From: a virus
Length of the DNA: 45,416 nucleotides
Strand: one strand, 5' to 3'
IMG/VR virus record: IMGVR_UViG_3300021403_000021
Span: 1-45,416 of that record
The notes under the pieces are model-generated. The model was not told where the DNA came from. It saw nothing but the letters and a program-made list of their open reading frames with translations, and searched no databases. Numbering within the stretch: the first letter of the stretch is position 1; each line of letters starts with the position of its first letter. Of this stretch, positions 6,391 through 44,128 are shown piece by piece. A program made the position numbers and the translations under genes.

Positions 6391-6430
6391 TTGATTCTCC
6401 TATTGATTAACGAACGGCAGAGTCTAGATT

Positions 6431-6490
6431 ATATCGGAATATATTGGAATATATCTGCATATATCCAAATATATCGGCATTTATCGGAGT
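6431..6490 (+). repeat. Six 10-bp phased repeats, left array
   Basis: Six consecutive 10-base units with the loose consensus ATATCGGAAT fill exactly 60 bases. The units are ATATCGGAAT, ATATTGGAAT, ATATCTGCAT, ATATCCAAAT, ATATCGGCAT and TTATCGGAGT. A 10-bp period puts each unit on the same face of the helix. The right array (6871-6930) carries the complementary orientation. The likely role is an iteron array for an origin-binding or regulatory protein, or phased bent DNA. It lies in the leader of the leftward operon. Confidence 0.75.
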
Positions 6491-6855: not shown

Positions 6856-6870
6856 GTGAGGCACCGCTCC

Positions 6871-6930
6871 GATAAATCCCGATATTTGCCGATATATCCC
6901 GATATATGTCAATATATTTGGATATCTTGC
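6871..6930 (-). repeat. Six 10-bp phased repeats, right array (inverted)
   Basis: Six 10-base units (GATAAATCCC, GATATTTGCC, GATATATCCC, GATATATGTC, AATATATTTG, GATATCTTGC) carry CCGATATAT, the complement of the ATATCGG of the left array. The two 60-base arrays face each other across 380 bases that hold the promoter, the AT-rich palindrome and the CGTTTTCA sites. Confidence 0.75.
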
Positions 6931-6995
6931 TATGTAGAACTTACATAGTGAATATCGGCGATTAATTGTTTTTGGAATTAACTAACTGAATTGCA

Positions 6996-7184
6996 CTCAG
7001 GTTTTATTTGGCTTGGCAATTTATACCAAACTAGGTAAAACCTGAGAAAATCCTAGATAGATAGCTAATAAGGTAAATAGACTTGCTTAAGGTCTAACCT
7101 AAGACTCTATCAAATCTTAGTCCACTTCCCCTGAGTGACTCGGCAGGATGAATTATATATTAATTCTGCCTATCGCCACTCAGG
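6996..7184. other. Gene-free stretch with successive strong hairpins
   Basis: No gene is seen between 6391 and 7241. This part folds strongly. CTCAGGTTTTA (6996-7006) pairs with TAAAACCTGAG (7036-7046), with TTTGG/CCAAA nested inside. A short hairpin lies at about 7085-7102. CCTGAGTG (7130-7137) pairs with CACTCAGG (7177-7184), with GGCA...GAATTA/TAATTC...TGCC nested inside. All pairs are perfect, so the strand cannot be decided. It may be the structured 3' end of the transcript from the promoter at 7818-7846, or a separate RNA. Confidence 0.5.
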
Positions 7185-7241
7185 ACGCTCTGAGCTTATT
7201 AGTCTATTTATACTCGCTCAGTCGAGTTTACTAACTGATTG

Positions 7242-7709
7242 TTACTGCTTAACCTGCGCAGCAATAGCATTTTCGAAACCCGGCTTAATGAGTGCAACAG
7301 CATCATCAAGCGAAGCATCAGCTCCAGCCATGTAATTACGAACAACGAGACGGAAGCGATTACGAACTTCCTCATCCCAAGTCGGATTGACATGTTCCGC
7401 AATGGGGTCAGAAGCGTCAGTGTAAAGCTTCTCATTATAGCCAGCGATAGCCAGCTTAGTGAGTGCAGCATCATCCGCTACCTTAGTAGCAGTAATGAAT
7501 TCCTGCATTGACTTCGGAAGCGTATCAGGAAGCGATTCATCAAATCGCTCATAAACGAAAGGCATAGAGCCTTTACCGCGAGTATAACCAAAAGCAGCGC
7601 GGGTGCCAATACCAGTTCGTCCAGCATTAGCAGCATCTACCTTTGCCTGATATTCCTTATTCGTAGCTTCTTTCTCGCTATCCTTCTGTTCAACAACTGC
7701 GTCAGCCAT
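7242..7709 (-). CDS. Hypothetical early protein, 155 aa, own promoter
   Basis: A single gene with its own canonical promoter (7818-7846) and a leader dyad. The frame is open from GTG 7748. ATG 7709 is preferred because AGAAAAGGG lies upstream at a usable distance and the product then begins MADAVVEQ; ATG 7721 is a second option. The protein is soluble, with a charged helical N-terminus, then GRTGIGTRAAFGYTRGKGS, and a helical C-terminal half. No family is recognised. Its isolation, strong host-type promoter and flanking palindromes suggest a highly and early expressed phage protein, such as a host-takeover or regulatory factor. That role is inferred. Confidence 0.75.
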   Translation of the reverse strand: MADAVVEQKDSEKEATNKEYQAKVDAANAGRTGIGTRAAFGYTRGKGSMPFVYERFDESLPDTLPKSMQEFITATKVADDAALTKLAIAGYNEKLYTDASDPIAEHVNPTWDEEVRNRFRLVVRNYMAGADASLDDAVALIKPGFENAIAAQVKQ

Positions 7710-7750
7710 TTGCTTAACCATCCCTTTTCTATCTAGTTTACGATGCACGG

Positions 7751-7772
7751 ACTGTCCTCACTTTCGGACAGT
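7751..7772. promoter_or_regulatory. Dyad ACTGTCC-N8-GGACAGT in leader
   Basis: A perfect 7-bp inverted repeat with an 8-base spacer, about 40 bases into the transcript from the promoter at 7818-7846 and just ahead of the coding region. It shares TGTCC-N8-GGACA with 6499-6520, which also lies downstream of a canonical leftward promoter. It is a candidate common operator or regulatory hairpin. Confidence 0.55.
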
Positions 7773-7817
7773 TCTTAGAGTTGAGAAGCTGAATTGCTCC
7801 TGCCAACTCACAAGAAC

Positions 7818-7846
7818 ATTGTATCATACGATGTTTGAATTGTCAA
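7818..7846 (-). promoter_or_regulatory. Sigma70-type promoter for the 155-aa gene
   Basis: On the minus strand, TTGACA (complement 7841-7846) is followed by 17 bases and TACAAT (complement 7818-7823). The -35 is perfect and the -10 matches five of six. The start of transcription would be near 7811. Confidence 0.85.
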
Positions 7847-7860
7847 GCGTTTTGAACGCT
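7846..7860. promoter_or_regulatory. Palindrome abutting the -35 box
   Basis: AGCGTT-TTG-AACGCT is a perfect 6-bp dyad that touches the -35 hexamer of the leftward promoter. The position is suitable for an activator or repressor. Confidence 0.45.
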
Positions 7861-7928
7861 CAGGATAACGAACTCGCGGCCTCCCAAGCCGTTGTTGTAT
7901 TCTATACAGTTAGCAATACATTTAACCA

Positions 7929-7949
7929 CGAGCGAGCGAAGCGAGCGAG
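7929..7949. repeat. GAGCGA-type mirror repeat
   Basis: The 21 bases at 7929-7949 repeat GAGCGAAGCGAG-type units that read the same forwards and backwards on one strand (a mirror, not an inverted repeat). A related stretch, containing GAGCGCAGCGAG, is at 8631-8650, where GCTGC-GAGC-GCAGC can also form a hairpin. Their base composition differs from the AT-rich surroundings, and they bracket the small-gene cassette. Confidence 0.5.
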
Positions 7950-7950
7950 T

Positions 7951-8017
7951 ATTATGAGGCTTACATTGATTTTAAAACGCTGCACTACTTAATAACAGCT
8001 AGTCAACTGCTCATAAT
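7951..8017. repeat. 8-bp inverted repeat next to the cassette arm
   Basis: ATTATGAG (7951-7958) and CTCATAAT (8010-8017) form a perfect stem around 51 bases. It ends two bases before the left 30-bp arm at 8020, so in a minus-strand RNA this stem would stack directly on the long cassette helix. The wider interval 7861-8058 contains no gene. Confidence 0.45.
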
Positions 8018-8019
8018 AT

Positions 8020-8049
8020 CTAATTGTGTATTCTGCTAGATTGCTAAGT
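8020..8049. repeat. Left arm of 30-bp inverted repeat around small-gene cassette
   Basis: This arm pairs with 8651-8680 over 30 positions: 27 Watson-Crick pairs and three A/C positions (8022 with 8678, 8036 with 8664, 8040 with 8660). All three become G.U pairs in minus-strand RNA. The arms enclose three small leftward genes. Confidence 0.7.
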
Positions 8050-8058
8050 TGATTTTGT

Positions 8059-8211
8059 TTACTCTGCTATCCAAACATGCATCCATGTTGCTTTATTGTC
8101 TGAATAGAACTGTTTTGTTGCTTTTGCGTTCTTCAGAGCATTTTTAAGCAGCTTGTATTTACCATGATAGCTAATCCATCTGACTCGGCTATTGTAAATA
8201 GCAACTCTCAT
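8059..8211 (-). CDS. Small basic protein, 50 aa
   Basis: ATG at 8211 overlaps the upstream stop as ATGA. The product (start MRVAIYNSRVRWISYHGKYK, end MHVWIAE) is basic and rich in aromatic residues. It ends nine bases before the inner edge of the left inverted arm. No family is recognised. The tight overlap with the upstream gene is the main reason to believe it. Confidence 0.65.
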   Translation of the reverse strand: MRVAIYNSRVRWISYHGKYKLLKNALKNAKATKQFYSDNKATWMHVWIAE

Positions 8212-8432
8212 CGTGCACTCAGGCTTTCAGTTTTAATCGGCCGGATGGAAAACTTGTTAATATCTTCCATCATTCTTTCAGTGAAAACCAAGTAAGCACG
8301 TTTCTCTGAGTAAGAGCAATCACTAACTCTAACCCAATGATTATCTACTTTACGGAATAAGCTGTAAAGCTTCAAAGGCTGATGTTTAAGTGAGTGATTG
8401 CGTAGTGGGAGTGAGCATTGTGTTAGTTGCAT
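8208..8432 (-). CDS. Small basic protein, 74-75 aa
   Basis: The upstream gene ends in AAGTGATG. A GTG start at 8435 would overlap by four bases and an ATG start at 8432 by one; I prefer the ATG. AGAAAGG lies upstream as a ribosome site. The protein is basic and aromatic-rich with two cysteines (LTQCSLPLRNHSL near the start, WVRVSDCSYSEKRAYLVF in the middle). No family is recognised. It is the middle gene of the three-gene cassette. Confidence 0.65.
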   Translation of the reverse strand: MQLTQCSLPLRNHSLKHQPLKLYSLFRKVDNHWVRVSDCSYSEKRAYLVFTERMMEDINKFSIRPIKTESLSAR

Positions 8433-8611
8433 CACTTTGCTGCCTTTCTAAGTGCTGACAGAAGAATTTTACAAACTCTTTCAGTATACTTAAAAAAAGA
8501 GGCAATAGTTAAAAGTGATTCAATATCGCTAAGTCCTGTTGCTTTTGAGTAGTTGTTAATAACCTCTACTAAAAGCCTTGCATCCCTTTGCAGTCTACTT
8601 TTCTCTTTCAC
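8432..8611 (-). CDS. Small helical protein, 59 aa (GTG start)
   Basis: GTG at 8611 follows an A-rich ribosome site (TAAGGAAAAAAAA). The product begins MKEKSRLQRDARLLVEVINN and is predicted to be two or three helices, basic at both ends. It is the first gene of the cassette, and its stop overlaps the second gene. The start lies about 40 bases inside the right inverted arm. Function unknown. Confidence 0.65.
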   Translation of the reverse strand: MKEKSRLQRDARLLVEVINNYSKATGLSDIESLLTIASFFKYTERVCKILLSALRKAAK

Positions 8612-8650
8612 TTTTTTTTCCTTAAATCAGGCTGCGAGCGCAGCGAGCAG

Positions 8651-8680
8651 ACTTAGCAACCTAACAGAATACACAATCAG
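8651..8680. repeat. Right arm of 30-bp inverted repeat around small-gene cassette
   Basis: This arm is complementary to 8020-8049, with three wobble positions on the minus strand. It is followed after 14 bases by the first arm of the 27-bp helix at 8695, so the two helices are adjacent in the folded RNA. Confidence 0.7.
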
Positions 8681-8694
8681 TTAGTTATTATTAC

Positions 8695-9129
8695 GATTTT
8701 AGGCTTTATAGAGTAGCTAGCTTTTCGACTTAGGCAACAGCCCGTCTACGACCTCAAATATTTCTTGGTTTGATTGTCAATCCGGTAATCCGGCAATAAG
8801 CTAATCAGAACCTCAATATTACTAGTTGGCAGGCTAGCCACTCTACAAAACCTAAAACCTACTAGCAATGCTACCGTTCACGGATTAAGGAAAATCCGTT
8901 ACATTAGGATATGCTAGCCGACGGGGAATAGTTTCATACGGCTGGATTCTATACCAGTTCCGGCGCCCCTAACGCCTTGTGTTTTGGTGAATACACTACG
9001 GCTCAAACATGGCCGGGCAAATCAATGCTCAGTATTCAGCGGTAACAGTAAACCGTGGGTAGAATGGTAGTTTTCCGGTTGTTTGCGCTCCAATCTTACT
9101 CTGCGTTCAATCGCAGCTTGCACTAGTAG
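8695..9129 (-). ncRNA. Candidate large structured RNA, leftward
   Basis: No gene is seen from 8612 to 9681. On the minus strand, 8859-8833 pairs with 8721-8695 over 27 positions. Its four non-Watson-Crick positions (8696/8858, 8704/8850, 8708/8846, 8715/8839) are A/C on the + strand but G.U on the minus strand. A second domain is closed by 8859-8865 with 9123-9129, extended by 8866-8868 with 9118-9120. It holds hairpins including CTGCG/CGCAG (about 9100-9115), GGCG/CGCC (about 8961-8975), CTGG/CCAG (about 8942-8958) and ACGGATT/AATCCGT (8880-8899). Nothing here matches tRNA, tmRNA or RNase P. Its size resembles the ornate phage RNAs GOLLD and ROOL, but I cannot assign it to either. Confidence 0.6.
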
Positions 9130-9134
9130 TAAAG

Positions 9135-9173
9135 CATACCAAATGCCAGGTAACATATACAATATATGGTATG
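9135..9173. other. Additional hairpin upstream of the RNA core
   Basis: CATACCA (9135-9141) pairs with TGGTATG (9167-9173). The sequence from 9174 to 9376 shows no gene and no strong structure, but contains three CGGCT/AGCCG pentamers. It may be the 5' portion of the leftward RNA. Confidence 0.35.
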
Positions 9174-9384
9174 AGAATCAGTATGATACCTATTAGCAGT
9201 GGCGAAAAGAAAATGAACGATGTAATAGTTACCTTAGCCGCTTTGACTCATAGCTAAAGCATTGATAACAAAGGATTTACCGTGCATAGATTCAATGCGG
9301 CTCTGTATGAAGCGGCTACACATTACTTCTTTATAAAATATATGCTTCGATATATGAACTAAACACAATATCTAGTGGGTATAG

Positions 9385-9434
9385 TATGCCATACCCCCAT
9401 ATAAGGGATATTTATGGTTCCATTATATGGCATA
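9385..9434. repeat. 9-bp inverted repeat over the leftward -10 box
   Basis: TATGCCATA (9385-9393) and TATGGCATA (9426-9434) are perfect complements. The right arm overlaps a minus-strand TATAAT (complement 9422-9427). A second, longer-range pair is GGGTATAG (9377-9384) with CTATACCC (9503-9510). Confidence 0.4.
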
Positions 9435-9450
9435 GATTTCGCAGCTTAAA
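9422..9450 (-). promoter_or_regulatory. Candidate leftward promoter for the structured RNA
   Basis: On the minus strand there is a perfect TATAAT (complement 9422-9427), a 17-base spacer and a weak -35 (TTTAAG, complement 9445-9450). Two 17-base direct repeats lie immediately upstream at 9455-9471 and 9475-9491, 20 bases apart with one difference. An activator site would explain the weak -35. Confidence 0.4.
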
Positions 9451-9454
9451 ACAT

Positions 9455-9491
9455 AGTCTATTTTACTATAAAAAAGTCCATTTTACTATAA
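9455..9491. repeat. Two 17-bp direct repeats, 20-bp period
   Basis: AGTCTATTTTACTATAA (9455-9471) and AGTCCATTTTACTATAA (9475-9491) differ at one base. They are spaced by two helical turns, directly upstream of the leftward TATAAT box. Probably tandem protein-binding sites. Confidence 0.55.
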
Positions 9492-9545
9492 TAATTACTA
9501 ACCTATACCCATACCCCGTTATATATAAAATGAAATACATGAAAA

Positions 9546-9575
9546 TGAACGGTTCATTCGGTGAACGGTTCATTC
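9546..9575. promoter_or_regulatory. Tandem TGAACGGTTCATTC sites
   Basis: The 14-base unit occurs at 9546-9559 and 9562-9575 (16-base period). Each unit contains the dyad TGAA-CGG-TTCA. They lie between the leftward promoter and the rightward promoter at 9607-9635, ending 31 bases before its -35. Candidate operators for an activator or repressor of the late operon. Confidence 0.6.
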
Positions 9576-9606
9576 AGATTAGCAATGTTTTGGCAGCGTT
9601 TTACTG

Positions 9607-9635
9607 TTGACTTTGGGTATGCGTTATGAGACAAT
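9607..9635 (+). promoter_or_regulatory. Candidate rightward promoter for virion operon
   Basis: TTGACT (9607-9612), a 17-base spacer and GACAAT (9630-9635) match the sigma70 hexamers at five and four positions. Transcription would start near 9642, about 40 bases before the first rightward gene. No other promoter is evident before the long virion operon. Confidence 0.5.
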
Positions 9636-9681
9636 CTGTGGACGAGCTGAAGTTCAATACAATAACCATTAGATAGTATAT

Positions 9682-10080
9682 ATGGCAATTATTTCAGAAG
9701 CCGAAGTTACTTCAAGATATGAATCTCCTATGAATTTATTTCATAGGTTACGCAAGTCTACTGAGACTAAAACTGAGATTGTATCTATTCCTAAGCCGTC
9801 CGCGGATCAGATCATTCCAGACCTTGATAAGAAACTTGAAATTGCTGGTTCGAAGAGCAAAGCTCTCTCAGTAATGAATAAGGTTCTATCTAGATTAGAT
9901 AACGAGATTGAAGGTATTAGAACAGACCGGCTGCCTGGTGTAGTAGCCGCAATGTCTAATGCTATTAAAGCAATGGAGCCTGAAAAGGATGGGGATAAGA
10001 GCCCTGTTCAGTTCATTATATATTCACCGACGGTCATGCAAGAGAAGGACTTCGGTGCTCCAATTGAGGTAACAGACTAA
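9682..10080 (+). CDS. Possible terminase small subunit, 132 aa
   Basis: First gene of the rightward operon. It has a variable N-terminus (ESPMNLFHRLRKSTETKTEI), a helical middle (residues about 45-95, IAGSKSKALSVMNKVLSRLD) and a C-terminal strand region (PVQFIIYSPTV). The helical core, the length and the position at the head of the packaging/virion operon are consistent with a small terminase. No helix-turn-helix is obvious and 4 kb separates it from the large subunit, so this remains a suggestion. It has no clear Shine-Dalgarno. Its stop overlaps the next start (TAATG). Confidence 0.45.
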   Translation: MAIISEAEVTSRYESPMNLFHRLRKSTETKTEIVSIPKPSADQIIPDLDKKLEIAGSKSKALSVMNKVLSRLDNEIEGIRTDRLPGVVAAMSNAIKAMEPEKDGDKSPVQFIIYSPTVMQEKDFGAPIEVTD

Positions 10081-14362: not shown

Positions 14363-16105
14363 ATGGACGACGTCGAGTTAGCTACAGTAGAAGATTTAGA
14401 AGTTGCTAAAGCTGAAGCAGATCTAGTCACCTCTACTAACAAGTTCTTAAGAGATGAATGGAGGCCAAATAGAAAGCAAGAAGCTTTCTTACGACTTCCA
14501 TTCACAATTAAAGAAGGCTTACTAGGAGGTGGTGCAGGTTCAGGTAAGTCGGATTGTTTATTACTTTATGGAATAGTTCATAAGTTCCATCACAATCCTA
14601 AATTTAAACAAGTCTTCATGCGCAGAACTCATGCTGACATGAAGAAGGAAATCATCCAGAGAAGTAGAGAACTATATAGAAGGTTAGGAGCTACATTCAA
14701 CGCATCAGACATGATCTGGACTTTTCCAAGAATAGATCAGTTTGGTAGCGGAGCTAAGAACGACGGAGCAATTATTATTCTTGGACATTGTGAGAATGAA
14801 TCCGATGTCCATATGTATGACTCAGCCGAAATTAGTCTATTCACACCGGATGAATTAACTAACAACACTGAGTTTATTTATCTTTACATCACTCAGGAGA
14901 GAAACAGAGCACCTAAAGGATCAGGATTACCAAGTATCACCAGAGCGGCTGCAATGCCAGGTGGAGTTGGTCATACATTCGTTAAGAAACGATTTGTAGA
15001 TCCTTTTCCTGCAGGTGGTAAGATTATTGTTGGTAAGGGTGGTAACAAAAGGATTTATATCCATGCTACCCTTAGAGACAACAAAGATCATATTGATCCT
15101 ACGTATGAGCAGTCTCTTGCTGGTAGACCTGAAGCTGAAAGAAAAGCAAAGCAGGACGGCGATTGGTCAGCCTACTTAGGATTAGTATTTGATGAGTTCA
15201 GAGTTCATAAATATCCAGATGAACCTGCAAACGCTTTACATGTTGTAGATCCGTTTGGTATTCCTCATTGGTGGCCTAAGTTTGTATGCGGTGACTGGGG
15301 CCATAGAGCAATGACATATGTATGTTTCATTGCTGTATCACCGGATCTTAGAGTTTACGTTTATAGAGAACTGCACTGGACTGGTATTAAAATCTCTGAG
15401 TGGGCTCCTATTCTACGTAGCTTTATAGAAGAAGAGCAACCTAGGATTGTTAAGTTTTGCCAGTCTACGAATCAAGATCACGGAAATGAACATACAATCC
15501 GTGAGCAGATTGAAGCCGCAATTGGTAGAACAATTGAGGTAAGTAAGAATAGCGCAGGTTCTAGAGTTTCAGGTAAGATGCTTCTTCATGAATACCTTAG
15601 GTGGAAAGAGTTACCTAAATTATCAACGAAGAACATGCCAGTTTATTCTGAAGAGAGAGCTAGATGGATTCTTCGGAATAAAGGTTTAGATGAGTATAAG
15701 GCTTACTTAAAGTTATTCGAGCCACCGAAGATTGAAGATAATATTCCAAGACTTCAAATCTTCTGTTGTGATGCTACTACTCATGAAGGACATCCACACT
15801 GTTGTCCTGCATTAATTAATAGTATCCAAGCTTGCAGTTACGATAAGCCTAGGAATAATAAACCGGCTGAAGATGTTGCAGAGTTCGAAGGTGATGATCC
15901 TTATGATACTCTGCGATATGCAATTGAGACAGCAGATAGTTACTTTGTAGAGTCTACAGACGAGTTGCAGCGGCTAAAGAGAGAGTCAGATGCTATGATG
16001 AGATTAGCTATGACTCATGACCAGACTGCATTCTATAGGCAGATGCGAAGTATTGAAGCAGACAATAAACTTTCAGTAGTTTCTAAATTTCACGGACGAC
16101 GATAA
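14363..16105 (+). CDS. terL: Terminase large subunit
   Basis: A 580-residue packaging motor. Walker A is GGGAGSGKS (residues 55-63), followed by an arginine-rich strand (QVFMRRTH), and Walker B is LFTPDEL (about residue 160). The C-terminal nuclease domain starts with VCGDWG (about residue 309), whose aspartate is the first metal ligand of the RNase H-like fold. The length is normal for the family. The ATPase pumps DNA into the prohead and the nuclease cuts the concatemer. The terminally redundant contig would fit headful packaging, but the sequence alone does not prove it. The stop overlaps the next gene (TAATG). Confidence 0.92.
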   Translation: MDDVELATVEDLEVAKAEADLVTSTNKFLRDEWRPNRKQEAFLRLPFTIKEGLLGGGAGSGKSDCLLLYGIVHKFHHNPKFKQVFMRRTHADMKKEIIQRSRELYRRLGATFNASDMIWTFPRIDQFGSGAKNDGAIIILGHCENESDVHMYDSAEISLFTPDELTNNTEFIYLYITQERNRAPKGSGLPSITRAAAMPGGVGHTFVKKRFVDPFPAGGKIIVGKGGNKRIYIHATLRDNKDHIDPTYEQSLAGRPEAERKAKQDGDWSAYLGLVFDEFRVHKYPDEPANALHVVDPFGIPHWWPKFVCGDWGHRAMTYVCFIAVSPDLRVYVYRELHWTGIKISEWAPILRSFIEEEQPRIVKFCQSTNQDHGNEHTIREQIEAAIGRTIEVSKNSAGSRVSGKMLLHEYLRWKELPKLSTKNMPVYSEERARWILRNKGLDEYKAYLKLFEPPKIEDNIPRLQIFCCDATTHEGHPHCCPALINSIQACSYDKPRNNKPAEDVAEFEGDDPYDTLRYAIETADSYFVESTDELQRLKRESDAMMRLAMTHDQTAFYRQMRSIEADNKLSVVSKFHGRR

Positions 16106-38032: not shown

Positions 38033-38119
38033 TGGTGCAGGCGAAAGGACTCGAACCTTCAATCCCTTACGGGCCTTTGGTTTTAAGCCAAATGCGTATA
38101 CCAGTTCCGCCACGCCTGC
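38033..38119 (-). tRNA. tRNA-Leu (anticodon UAA)
   Basis: Minus-strand reading gives a 7-bp acceptor stem (GCAGGCG with CGCCTGC), a D arm, an anticodon stem TTTGG/CCAAA around the loop CTTAAAA (anticodon TAA), a long variable arm (GGCCCGTAAGGGATT) typical of leucine, a T arm with TTCGAGT, discriminator A and an encoded CCA. It is the only tRNA found. It would read UUA and UUG, and TTA is the common leucine codon in the phage genes. Confidence 0.97.
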
Positions 38120-41208: not shown

Positions 41209-41630
41209 GATTTAATCACCTCAACCCATGCAACCTTATGTTTAGATAAGGCATACTTAACAGTCCAACATCCACCAGATTTGATATGAGTATCAGTTTT
41301 ACAGTGATAGCAATAATCAAATTTCATACCATTATAACTAGCAGGTAATTTATCAACTGTAATACATACTACTCTATCTGAATAATCAGCAATCTGCATA
41401 TTTCTCTTTTTATAGAACTCCCAGTTTAAATTACTAGGAGAGAACTCCTCCCAACCAATACCTGCACCTTTAGCTTCTTCTATAGCCCAGATATCAATAC
41501 CACCAAGATGACATTTACCAGATACTACTTTAGTAGCATTTCTAATAAGATTTCTGATAAGCTCTCTAGCCGCTGTCTCTGTAGCTTCTGTAAACTTAGC
41601 GGCTTCAGAACCTACAATACCTATAATCAT
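41205..41630 (-). CDS. SLOG/DUF2493-like Rossmann protein, 141 aa
   Basis: ATG 41630 is chosen because AAGAAGGTG lies at the right distance and it overlaps the polymerase stop as ATGA. The protein opens MIIGIVGSEAAKF, followed by VVSGKCHLGGIDIWAIEEAK. This is the GSR...SGG-type pattern of DprA/SLOG-like proteins that bind nucleotides or nucleic acids. A CYHCKTDTHIKSGGC segment near the end adds Cys/His residues. The function in phages is not known. Confidence 0.65.
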   Translation of the reverse strand: MIIGIVGSEAAKFTEATETAARELIRNLIRNATKVVSGKCHLGGIDIWAIEEAKGAGIGWEEFSPSNLNWEFYKKRNMQIADYSDRVVCITVDKLPASYNGMKFDYCYHCKTDTHIKSGGCWTVKYALSKHKVAWVEVIKS

Positions 41631-44128
41631 AACTTCACCTTCTTCATATTTGCCCAAGTAGTATCAGATACTTCACAGTCACAAGGGATAACTAATACGA
41701 AATCGCGCTTTAAGGTGCAATACTTGGAGAAGTCAATCGGCTTAGTCATATGCTTCTGCAAAACTCTAGCATACTTCTCCCAGCCGTTCTCAGGAACTTG
41801 CAGTAATAGAGAGTCATGATTCTCAGAGATGAATTGAACATCTTCTCCCTGAAACTCTTCAAAACAAGCTATTCCTGCTCCTTGAACAAGATGTGCAACT
41901 GTCCTTTGTGGGATATTGGCAAATCCTTCTTTATAGATTGAATCATCCATTCTACCCCAAAAGGTCCTAACTCCGCCAAAAGGATCAATAAGTGTTCTGG
42001 TATTACTGATTTCTTCGATGATTTCATTATGGAATACCGATCTAATTTTGGGAGATGCAGCATGAAATAGCTCTAGCATCTGACCAGCTTTCCACTCAGA
42101 TATCCTCATAGCTATATCGAACTTCTGAGCATCAGTATTGAAATTCAACATGAACTCGCCTTTGCCCATGTTGTAATTTCCAGCATGTCTAATCTTCTTA
42201 CCTACGAACCTTTCAGGGCCGTCTTTATCTAACTCATCTACTATTGGAACTCTTTCTTTCTTAAGACTTAGTTCCTTTGTATAAGCAAAGCAAAGACCAG
42301 CCGTCCTGCGATGAATATCAATCTCATCGAATGCCTGTAGTAACTCAAAATCTTTGCTTAGGACGGCTACAACTCTAGCTTCAGCTTGCCCAGAATCAGC
42401 CTGTAAGAAAATTTTCCCTTTGTCCGGAATAAACATTGAACGGATATCTTTTGCGAGCCGTCCATGTTTTGAGATTGTATGAAATCCCAGGCCAAGTCGC
42501 GTTGGTCTAATAGGCTTCTTAAGAATTCCTGTAGTGCTTCTACAAGTCTCTGTTGCTGAGATATTGAAAGAAGTCTTTGCCCTTCCATCGTAGTCTGGGT
42601 GGAAGCTAATATCTCTGGATCGTTGAGTTCTAATACGCTTCTCTTCAAGGAGTGTTTCGAGGATCGCTTTCTGTTCGTCTTTTTTGGCATGATTAGTCAA
42701 CAACCTAACAATAGTATCTTCAGATGTAGGATTCCTCTTCATAAGCTTAAACTTCATCAGCTTATAAAGAAGATAGTGAACCTGTGGATAACTTTTTACA
42801 TTGATATCTTCACCGACTAATCTCGTGAGTTTTTCATGTTCTTCCTTTTCGAGCTTAGCGTATTTATGCTGTAACTCTCTTTGCTTAGCATGATCTACAT
42901 TGAAGCCGACGTTTTCCATATTTAAATAGAAAGCGTGCTTCCGCATCATGTAATTGTAGAAGTACTCAACAAGTGGAACTTTAAATTGTTCTGCTTGCGC
43001 TATTAGAGATAGTTCCTGCTCGGAATCAACTTCGAAATTTACAGCACAATCTTTAGCGTTATACTTAAACAGCTGAGCAATATTCGACTTACCTATTTTG
43101 AATTCTTTTCCTTCTTTTTTCCAGAACGGCTCTCTCGTCCATAAGGATGCAGCAACGTCCAGCCCTTTATCTGGTAATTCCGGGAATAATACTCTTGTTT
43201 TAAGCAGAGTATCGCTATATAGATGTAAACCGCGAAAGCCAATAAGTCCAAGCTTATATTCATCATATTTGAAGTTATGCCCGATGATCTTAATTCTTCG
43301 CAGTTGAACATCAATCATCCTCCAGCACTGTTCTAGTTCAAACAGTCCCATTGAGGTGAGTTCATTCTTGCCGATCTTCCTTAGAAGGGGTATAGAGATA
43401 GCATGAGAACTGTTAAAGGCAAAACCAACGCATACTGGAACACAATTAATACTTTCAATATCCACAACACAGCGTTCTCTATCTTTATACTCATCGAAGA
43501 ATCTGTGAGCAGTAAGAGAACTATTGCAAACAATAAGGTCACGAGCTGGCAAATTAAGTCTGCAAGAATCAGACTCTTCATAAGCACGTTTAATGTCATG
43601 TTCAATTAACTTCTTATATACAAATGGTAAGCCGCCGTCTCGTTCTTCTTCGCCTGATTGACGATTGAACAGAGCGGCTGGATGAATTGTTGGAACTACT
43701 TTAGTCTTTCCATCACGTGCAGTTAATATCGAACCTCTGTAATTAAGAATGCTATATTCATCTTTCTTATCATCAAAATCTAAAGGCCACCCCATTACTG
43801 CTCTGAGAGCATATCGTCCCATAGCAAGGATACAACGCGGCTTTAGAATTTCAACTTCCTTTTCCCATAGCAATCTGCACTGCTCATCTAAATCTATATT
43901 GATAAGATTCAGCTTCCTCATATCGTTAAAAGGAGGCTGATATTTACATAGATTCGTTATATACAGTTCATTTCTATCTATACCACAGGCTTCTAATATC
44001 TCATCGAACAATTCACCTGTCGGTCCAATGAGTGGTTTTAAGAATTCGTTTTCAATTCTACCTGGAGCTTCAGCTATTACCATTAGCTTCGGTTCTAATG
44101 GTCCTATACCTGGGACGTAGTTGGGCAT
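41627..44128 (-). CDS. UDG-DNA polymerase I fusion
   Basis: The 833-residue protein joins three units. Residues about 1-190 are a family 4-like uracil-DNA glycosylase (IAEAPGRIENEFLKPLIGPT and, later, HPAAL). About 215-380 are a DnaQ-like 3'-5' exonuclease with all three motifs (VVDIES, HNFKYDE, YNAKD). The rest is a family A polymerase with motif A (ADSGQAEAR, about residue 577), motif B (GKKIRHAGNYNMG, about 645) and motif C (ENHDSL, about 771). All key residues are visible. It would replicate the phage DNA, and the UDG domain could remove or sense uracil near the fork. The start lies seven bases after the previous gene, and the stop overlaps the next (ATGA). Confidence 0.92.
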   Translation of the reverse strand: MPNYVPGIGPLEPKLMVIAEAPGRIENEFLKPLIGPTGELFDEILEACGIDRNELYITNLCKYQPPFNDMRKLNLINIDLDEQCRLLWEKEVEILKPRCILAMGRYALRAVMGWPLDFDDKKDEYSILNYRGSILTARDGKTKVVPTIHPAALFNRQSGEEERDGGLPFVYKKLIEHDIKRAYEESDSCRLNLPARDLIVCNSSLTAHRFFDEYKDRERCVVDIESINCVPVCVGFAFNSSHAISIPLLRKIGKNELTSMGLFELEQCWRMIDVQLRRIKIIGHNFKYDEYKLGLIGFRGLHLYSDTLLKTRVLFPELPDKGLDVAASLWTREPFWKKEGKEFKIGKSNIAQLFKYNAKDCAVNFEVDSEQELSLIAQAEQFKVPLVEYFYNYMMRKHAFYLNMENVGFNVDHAKQRELQHKYAKLEKEEHEKLTRLVGEDINVKSYPQVHYLLYKLMKFKLMKRNPTSEDTIVRLLTNHAKKDEQKAILETLLEEKRIRTQRSRDISFHPDYDGRAKTSFNISATETCRSTTGILKKPIRPTRLGLGFHTISKHGRLAKDIRSMFIPDKGKIFLQADSGQAEARVVAVLSKDFELLQAFDEIDIHRRTAGLCFAYTKELSLKKERVPIVDELDKDGPERFVGKKIRHAGNYNMGKGEFMLNFNTDAQKFDIAMRISEWKAGQMLELFHAASPKIRSVFHNEIIEEISNTRTLIDPFGGVRTFWGRMDDSIYKEGFANIPQRTVAHLVQGAGIACFEEFQGEDVQFISENHDSLLLQVPENGWEKYARVLQKHMTKPIDFSKYCTLKRDFVLVIPCDCEVSDTTWANMKKVKL

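Follow-up and report, generated by a model that had tools for sequence, protein, structure and literature searches.

The window analysed here is the whole 45,416-nt stretch of viral DNA in IMG/VR record IMGVR_UViG_3300021403_000021. Its leftward (minus-strand) genes encode a SNF2-type helicase, a PD-(D/E)XK nuclease, a primase and a UDG-polA-like DNA polymerase, and from this gene content the leftward unit is taken to be an early replication operon. The polymerase, at 41627-44128 (-), is a single protein in which a uracil-DNA-glycosylase-type domain at the N-terminus is joined to DNA polymerase A. The terminase maps to 14363-16105, and the window's single tRNA, a tRNA-Leu (TAA), at 38033-38119 (-). 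Two inverted arrays of 10-bp repeats, at 6430-6489 and 6867-6925 (TATATCGGAA / CCGATATATC), flank an AT-rich region and are possibly a replication origin or partition site; arrays of other repeat units are found at a like place in relatives.

The region of interest lies between two conserved genes, a leftward one (the left gene) and the first gene of a rightward cluster (Table 1). The product of the left gene has a predicted structure with a pLDDT of 82.7 and no match in the PDB, and in L119-L123 this gene is on the strand opposite the helicase gene. It has its own strong promoter-like site, so that part of the operon may be independent of the leader upstream; similar promoter-like sites were seen by eye in L007, L018 and L095. 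Relatives were gathered via the terminase, the left gene and the first rightward gene. A host search with the terminase in 84,980 genomes returned no relative, and the kind of metagenomes that yielded the relatives suggests a soil setting.

Table 1. Features of the leader region and its flanking genes (positions in the window).
Feature	Position	Strand	Remarks
Predicted Pistol self-cleaving ribozyme, just after left gene	7168-7227	-	RF02679, 41.3 bits (gathering 34.5), model positions 1-68
Left gene, conserved 168-aa protein	7242-7748	-	In several relatives a stem surrounds this gene
Extended -10 promoter-like site, before left gene	7818-7846	-	TTGACA-17-TACAAT; 11/12 consensus positions
Second stem, 3' arm	8017-8049	-	Pairs with 8651-8683
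Small ORF 3, 50 aa	8059-8211	-	Start overlaps ORF 2 stop (ATGA)
Small ORF 2, 74 aa	8208-8432	-	Start overlaps ORF 1 stop (TGATG)
Small ORF 1, 59 aa	8432-8611	-	GTG start after AAGGA
Second stem, 5' arm	8651-8683	-	29 Watson-Crick + 3 G.U + 1 mismatch with 8017-8049
First stem, 3' arm in the leftward RNA	8695-8721	-	23 Watson-Crick + 4 G.U with 8833-8859
111-nt non-coding segment within first stem	8722-8832	-	No RBS-preceded ORF inside
First stem, 5' arm	8833-8859	-	Also recovered independently as an inverted repeat
Second domain, closed by 8859-8868 / 9118-9129	8859-9129	-	Minimum-energy fold; energy alone not significant
Hairpin TGGCA-N7-TGCT, common to the relatives' leader family	9133-9148	-	Profile match 9170-9121(-)
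Promoter-proximal leader part conserved with L109, L113	9360-9574	-	nhmmer E ~4e-6 in the leader set; 3e-4 in all loci (L109)
Conserved 132-aa protein, first of rightward cluster	9682-10080	+	Anchor for finding homologous leaders

Long-range stems in the window

A preliminary description of this DNA had placed a large folded minus-strand RNA here, built on a 27-position helix whose arms are those of the first stem in Table 1. The helix is present as described: apart from its Watson-Crick pairs it has four irregular positions (8696/8858, 8704/8850, 8708/8846 and 8715/8839), all A/C on the plus strand and all G.U on the minus strand. Taken alone, this 4/4 polarity is weak (1 in 8, two-sided). 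At a distance of only 13 nt, however, is a second stem of 33 nt (8017-8049 / 8651-8683) spanning 601 nt, with three G.U pairs on the minus strand, so that the wobble pairs of the two stems are on the leftward strand in seven cases out of seven (4/4 in the first and 3/3 in the second). Folding of 8010-8690(-) gave a z of -5.93. In a scan of the whole window for long inverted repeats, no other stem of this long-range kind appeared once the iteron arrays were set aside; the further finds were a 27-nt stem of short range (6035-6061/6094-6120) and a plain 15-bp repeat, and 20-kb first-order Markov sequences, used as control, gave 1, 0 and 0 arms scoring at least 15. A stem around the window's left gene was not significant, 16 of 60 shuffles being as good.

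The second stem is almost filled by three overlapping ORFs, which occupy 553 of the 601 nt inside it. The earlier view that over 1 kb here is without a credible gene is wrong for 8059-8611, where these coupled minus-strand ORFs are found; the truly non-coding part is about 8690-9170. REP-like GC-rich palindromes are present at 8632-8650 (GCTCGCTGCGCTCGCAGC), within the 5' leader of the stem-enclosed ORFs, and at 7929-7950 (CGAGCGAGCGAAGCGAGCGAG); palindromes of like appearance were seen in L109 and L113.

Folding energy is less informative for the non-coding part. The z for 8690-9135 is -3.56 on the minus and -3.32 on the plus strand, too alike for energy alone to settle the strand of the RNA. 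The second domain had been described as containing at least four hairpins, and its closing pairs and hairpins do appear in the minimum-energy fold, but its energy support is weak: 8860-9135 folded alone has a z of -1.18, with 23 of 200 shuffles as good. No homologue of the helix segment was found in phages, in the relatives' viral contigs or in the helicase relatives L119-L124; the evidence from covariation comes from the same place in relatives.

Stems and leaders in related phages

Of the 38 related loci with enough flanking sequence, 20 have stems of 21-36 bp in the leftward leader, between one and four per locus. What lies inside a stem varies: a single ORF, a set of coupled ORFs, the left gene, or only a module without coding capacity. 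Most stems hold a single small ORF or coupled ORFs (that of L045, for example, a 64-aa ORF), and the proteins from stem-enclosed ORFs are conserved. Some relatives, such as L096, have no long stem at all. The arms fit closely around the translation units: in 15 tabulated ORF-enclosing stems the median distance is 15 nt from the end of the 5' arm to the start codon, usually with room for a Shine-Dalgarno sequence alone, and 10 nt from the stop codon to the 3' arm. The gap between one stem and the next is 2-17 nt in many cases and at least 42 nt in others. Two phages have a pair of tandem stem units with almost identical arms (L097, 3273-3784; L256, 11816-12458), which suggests that the unit was duplicated there.

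Two properties of these stems point to pairing in the leftward RNA. Their irregular pairs, counted over non-overlapping stems, are 50 G.U against 4 A.C on the leftward strand (binomial p 1.9e-11, the true p being weaker since the loci share ancestry), whereas in the iteron-type inverted repeats that these genomes also have, taken as DNA elements, the irregular pairs are about equally frequent on the two strands. In addition, 13 homologous stems have two-sided compensatory change at 14 of 20 pairs, and 94.2% of their cells are paired, as against 27-41% when slid. An internal mismatch, usually G.G, is almost invariant in the homologous stems and is missing from the window's two. As a background rate, other viral loci totaling 1.03 Mb contained 7 stems, and one of these was in a locus that turned out to be a relative. 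Taken together, these comparisons show at the level of sequence that the leftward RNA of the phage group can fold into a row of long stems, often back to back.

The regions left of the rightward gene have extended nucleotide similarity among many relatives (all-against-all nhmmer), and a leader profile found its top match in 1.07 Mb of control sequence plus the window at 9170-9121(-), with 10.5 bits against 6.8 for the next. This match consists of the 5' hairpin only, at the expected place and strand. Both marks of the family are thus found in the window: long stems with G.U pairs on the leftward strand (8695-8859 and 8017-8683) and the 5' hairpin TGGCA-N7-TGC(T). The order of units in the window is 5' hairpin, non-coding stem, ORF stem, left gene and Pistol ribozyme; it resembles that of L095, where the place of the stem-closed non-coding unit is taken by a module termed A, followed by a small ORF. 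By analogy with the covariation in relatives at the same place, and from the strand polarity of the G.U pairs, a structured leftward RNA in the window is well supported. What had been proposed as a leftward non-coding RNA is no free-standing locus: its helix is one unit in a chain of stem-enclosed units, the majority of which contain protein-coding ORFs.

Non-coding modules and known RNA families

Two non-coding modules recur in the relatives' leaders. Module A is a stem-closed domain, GAGATAATCC ... CACGGAATAATC, which pairs in four of four sequences with two-sided changes at 14 of 22 pairs. Module B is a pseudoknot, GGCTG-ATAAGCG-CAGCC ... ACGCTGTC, which pairs in 11 of 11 sequences; there are compensatory changes in its stem (GGCAG/CTGCC, GACTG/CAGTC) and in the pseudoknot itself (G-C to A-U). 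Neither matched any Rfam family. Module B was not found in the window. A MAFFT alignment suggested a partial resemblance of 8722-8832 to module A of L097, but the module A covariance model gave no match at 8695-8859, and the assignment was rejected. Each module is also missing from some relatives, so neither defines the stem-enclosed leader family. Among the matches listed in a module B pattern scan of viral contigs, those outside the phage group were two weak structural look-alikes only. Two matches from the module A pattern scan (L259 and L261) were false positives, neither forming a long closing stem; that in L261 is within a 259-aa ORF.

The preliminary description had suggested a divergent GOLLD or ROOL RNA, or else a new class. 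Membership in either known class was not borne out: cmscan of the window and relatives matched neither, lax thresholds included. For GOLLD the window gave no match at the gathering score and 6900-9800 gave none even with E relaxed to 5; for ROOL there was none in the window or in 16 relatives. GOLLD and ROOL are often near tRNA islands (PMC12286853), but the only tRNA in the window is far off. The likeness to them is that of large structured phage RNAs; absence of a Rfam match, absence of a tRNA island and a different organization set the present RNA apart. Pistol and the tRNA were the only Rfam families found. A group I intron candidate (RF00028) at 9282-9479(+) was rejected, at 13.6 bits against a gathering score of 50 (E 3.7). 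The predicted Pistol ribozyme matches the whole model and is a neighbor of the RNA first described, not identical to it; a Pistol ribozyme is found at a like place in L095, L103 and L104.

Possible processing of the leftward transcript

A reading that unites these features is that the early leftward transcript is cut at the long stems into stem-capped pieces. On this reading the region forms the 5' portion of the leftward transcription unit for early replication, with the helix first described as the window's non-coding unit and the next stem holding the three coupled ORFs. Host RNase III, together with the downstream Pistol ribozyme, would probably divide the long transcript into individual messages, each of them stem-capped, and release one or more small structured RNAs. 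The paired ends may shield each message from end-dependent decay and may also uncouple its translation from that of its neighbors. We infer cutting because stems this long suit RNase III and because a Pistol ribozyme sits downstream; expression and purpose are presumed along with it, and the reading as a whole seems to us evenly balanced between right and wrong. Double-stranded regions of more than 22 nt are RNase III targets (PMC5371410), and the window's stems, at 25-33 nt, exceed this length, judged from the letters of the arms. No RNase III gene was found in the phage, and the host enzyme is assumed for that reason. Most homologous stems share a conserved internal G.G mismatch, which suggests that a specific partner binds them rather than that they are simply diced. 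As an argument against protection, long stems could hinder ribosomes or trigger decay instead.

Alternative explanations

The main rival is insulation without cutting, in which uncut stems act as structural insulators that hold cistrons as closed loops, block exonucleases and prevent ribosome read-through. The minimal distance of the arms around each translation unit would fit this well, as would pairing that is conserved though arm sequences differ, and a phage without a dedicated nuclease gene. Perfect stems of 21-36 bp, on the other hand, are expected RNase III substrates in most bacteria, and the downstream ribozyme points to processing, so that insulation by itself appears rather unlikely, although it is the strongest of the alternatives. 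A related question is whether the non-coding unit belongs with the ORF stems at all: it could act in trans as a phage RNA in its own right, or serve in antitermination at the head of the early operon, with the ORF stems a separate matter. The conserved 5' hairpin and the pseudoknot module, placed early in the leader ahead of a long operon, are what such an element might look like, and module A covaries as a separate domain. But non-coding units and ORFs share the same back-to-back type of stem, and with no Rfam match there is no known regulator to point to; this explanation is considered improbable.

Equally improbable is a role at the DNA level, in which the stems would be inverted repeats that belong to mobile or exchangeable cassettes, in the way of terminal inverted repeats or of integron-type recombination sites. 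The two phages with paired tandem units and nearly identical arms (L097 and L256) are in its favor, and so is the variation of the enclosed small ORFs between phages. It does not readily account for the 50:4 excess of G.U over A.C on one strand when iteron-type inverted repeats are roughly symmetric, for arm sequences that differ between neighboring units in most phages, or for homologous ORFs that keep their position while the stems covary; neither the lack of strand preference nor the site sequence common to all units that would mark an integron or transposon was seen. Finally, the window's helix might be a functionless inverted repeat, by chance or as a relic, since its segment has no homologue found and neither module A nor module B was detected in the window. 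That two stems 13 nt apart are in the same place as in relatives, with all seven wobble pairs on the leftward strand and the family's 5' hairpin adjoining, makes this the least probable explanation. Cutting of the early transcript into stem-capped pieces is preferred over all of these.

Comparison with known systems

Extended to the whole group, the proposal is that a dsDNA phage lineage packs each early cistron, and its non-coding RNAs, in a long stem of its own, many with a conserved G.G mismatch, and that a polycistronic transcript would be turned into stem-capped single-unit messages by a gene-by-gene RNA maturation not previously known for mRNA. This is put forward tentatively, as a little less probable than cutting itself, and would suggest a virus that tailors its early messages gene by gene. 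If it is true, phage genes organized as stem-enclosed RNA cassettes would bring a new principle to operon architecture and to the maturation of mRNA, with a recognizable signature for finding such operons, two RNA domains added that Rfam lacks, and a clear prediction of where transcript ends should be. No description of cistron-enclosing stems in phage mRNA was found in the literature searched, which left most subscription journals outside; the novelty of the layout is provisional to that extent.

Several known systems have parts of this arrangement. In T7-type early mRNA, RNase III sites are local hairpins between genes; in both cases structures are found at the gene borders of a phage early transcript, but here the arms pair across the gene. 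The nearest elements found in the literature searched, the SAS/ESAS of cluster K mycobacteriophages, are likewise repeated, contain inverted repeats and are tied to many genes, with an unclear role; the ESAS, which lies upstream of its gene, consists of a promoter and a 17-bp inverted repeat of local extent (PMC3203893, PMC11373665). These elements do not enclose a gene, as the present stems do. A further parallel is the bacterial pre-rRNA, from which RNase III releases 16S and 23S rRNA (PMC5371410): there, too, flanking sequences form long stems and units are back to back in one transcript. The difference is that most of the units here are protein-coding cistrons of a phage early operon, which would be cut in a like manner.
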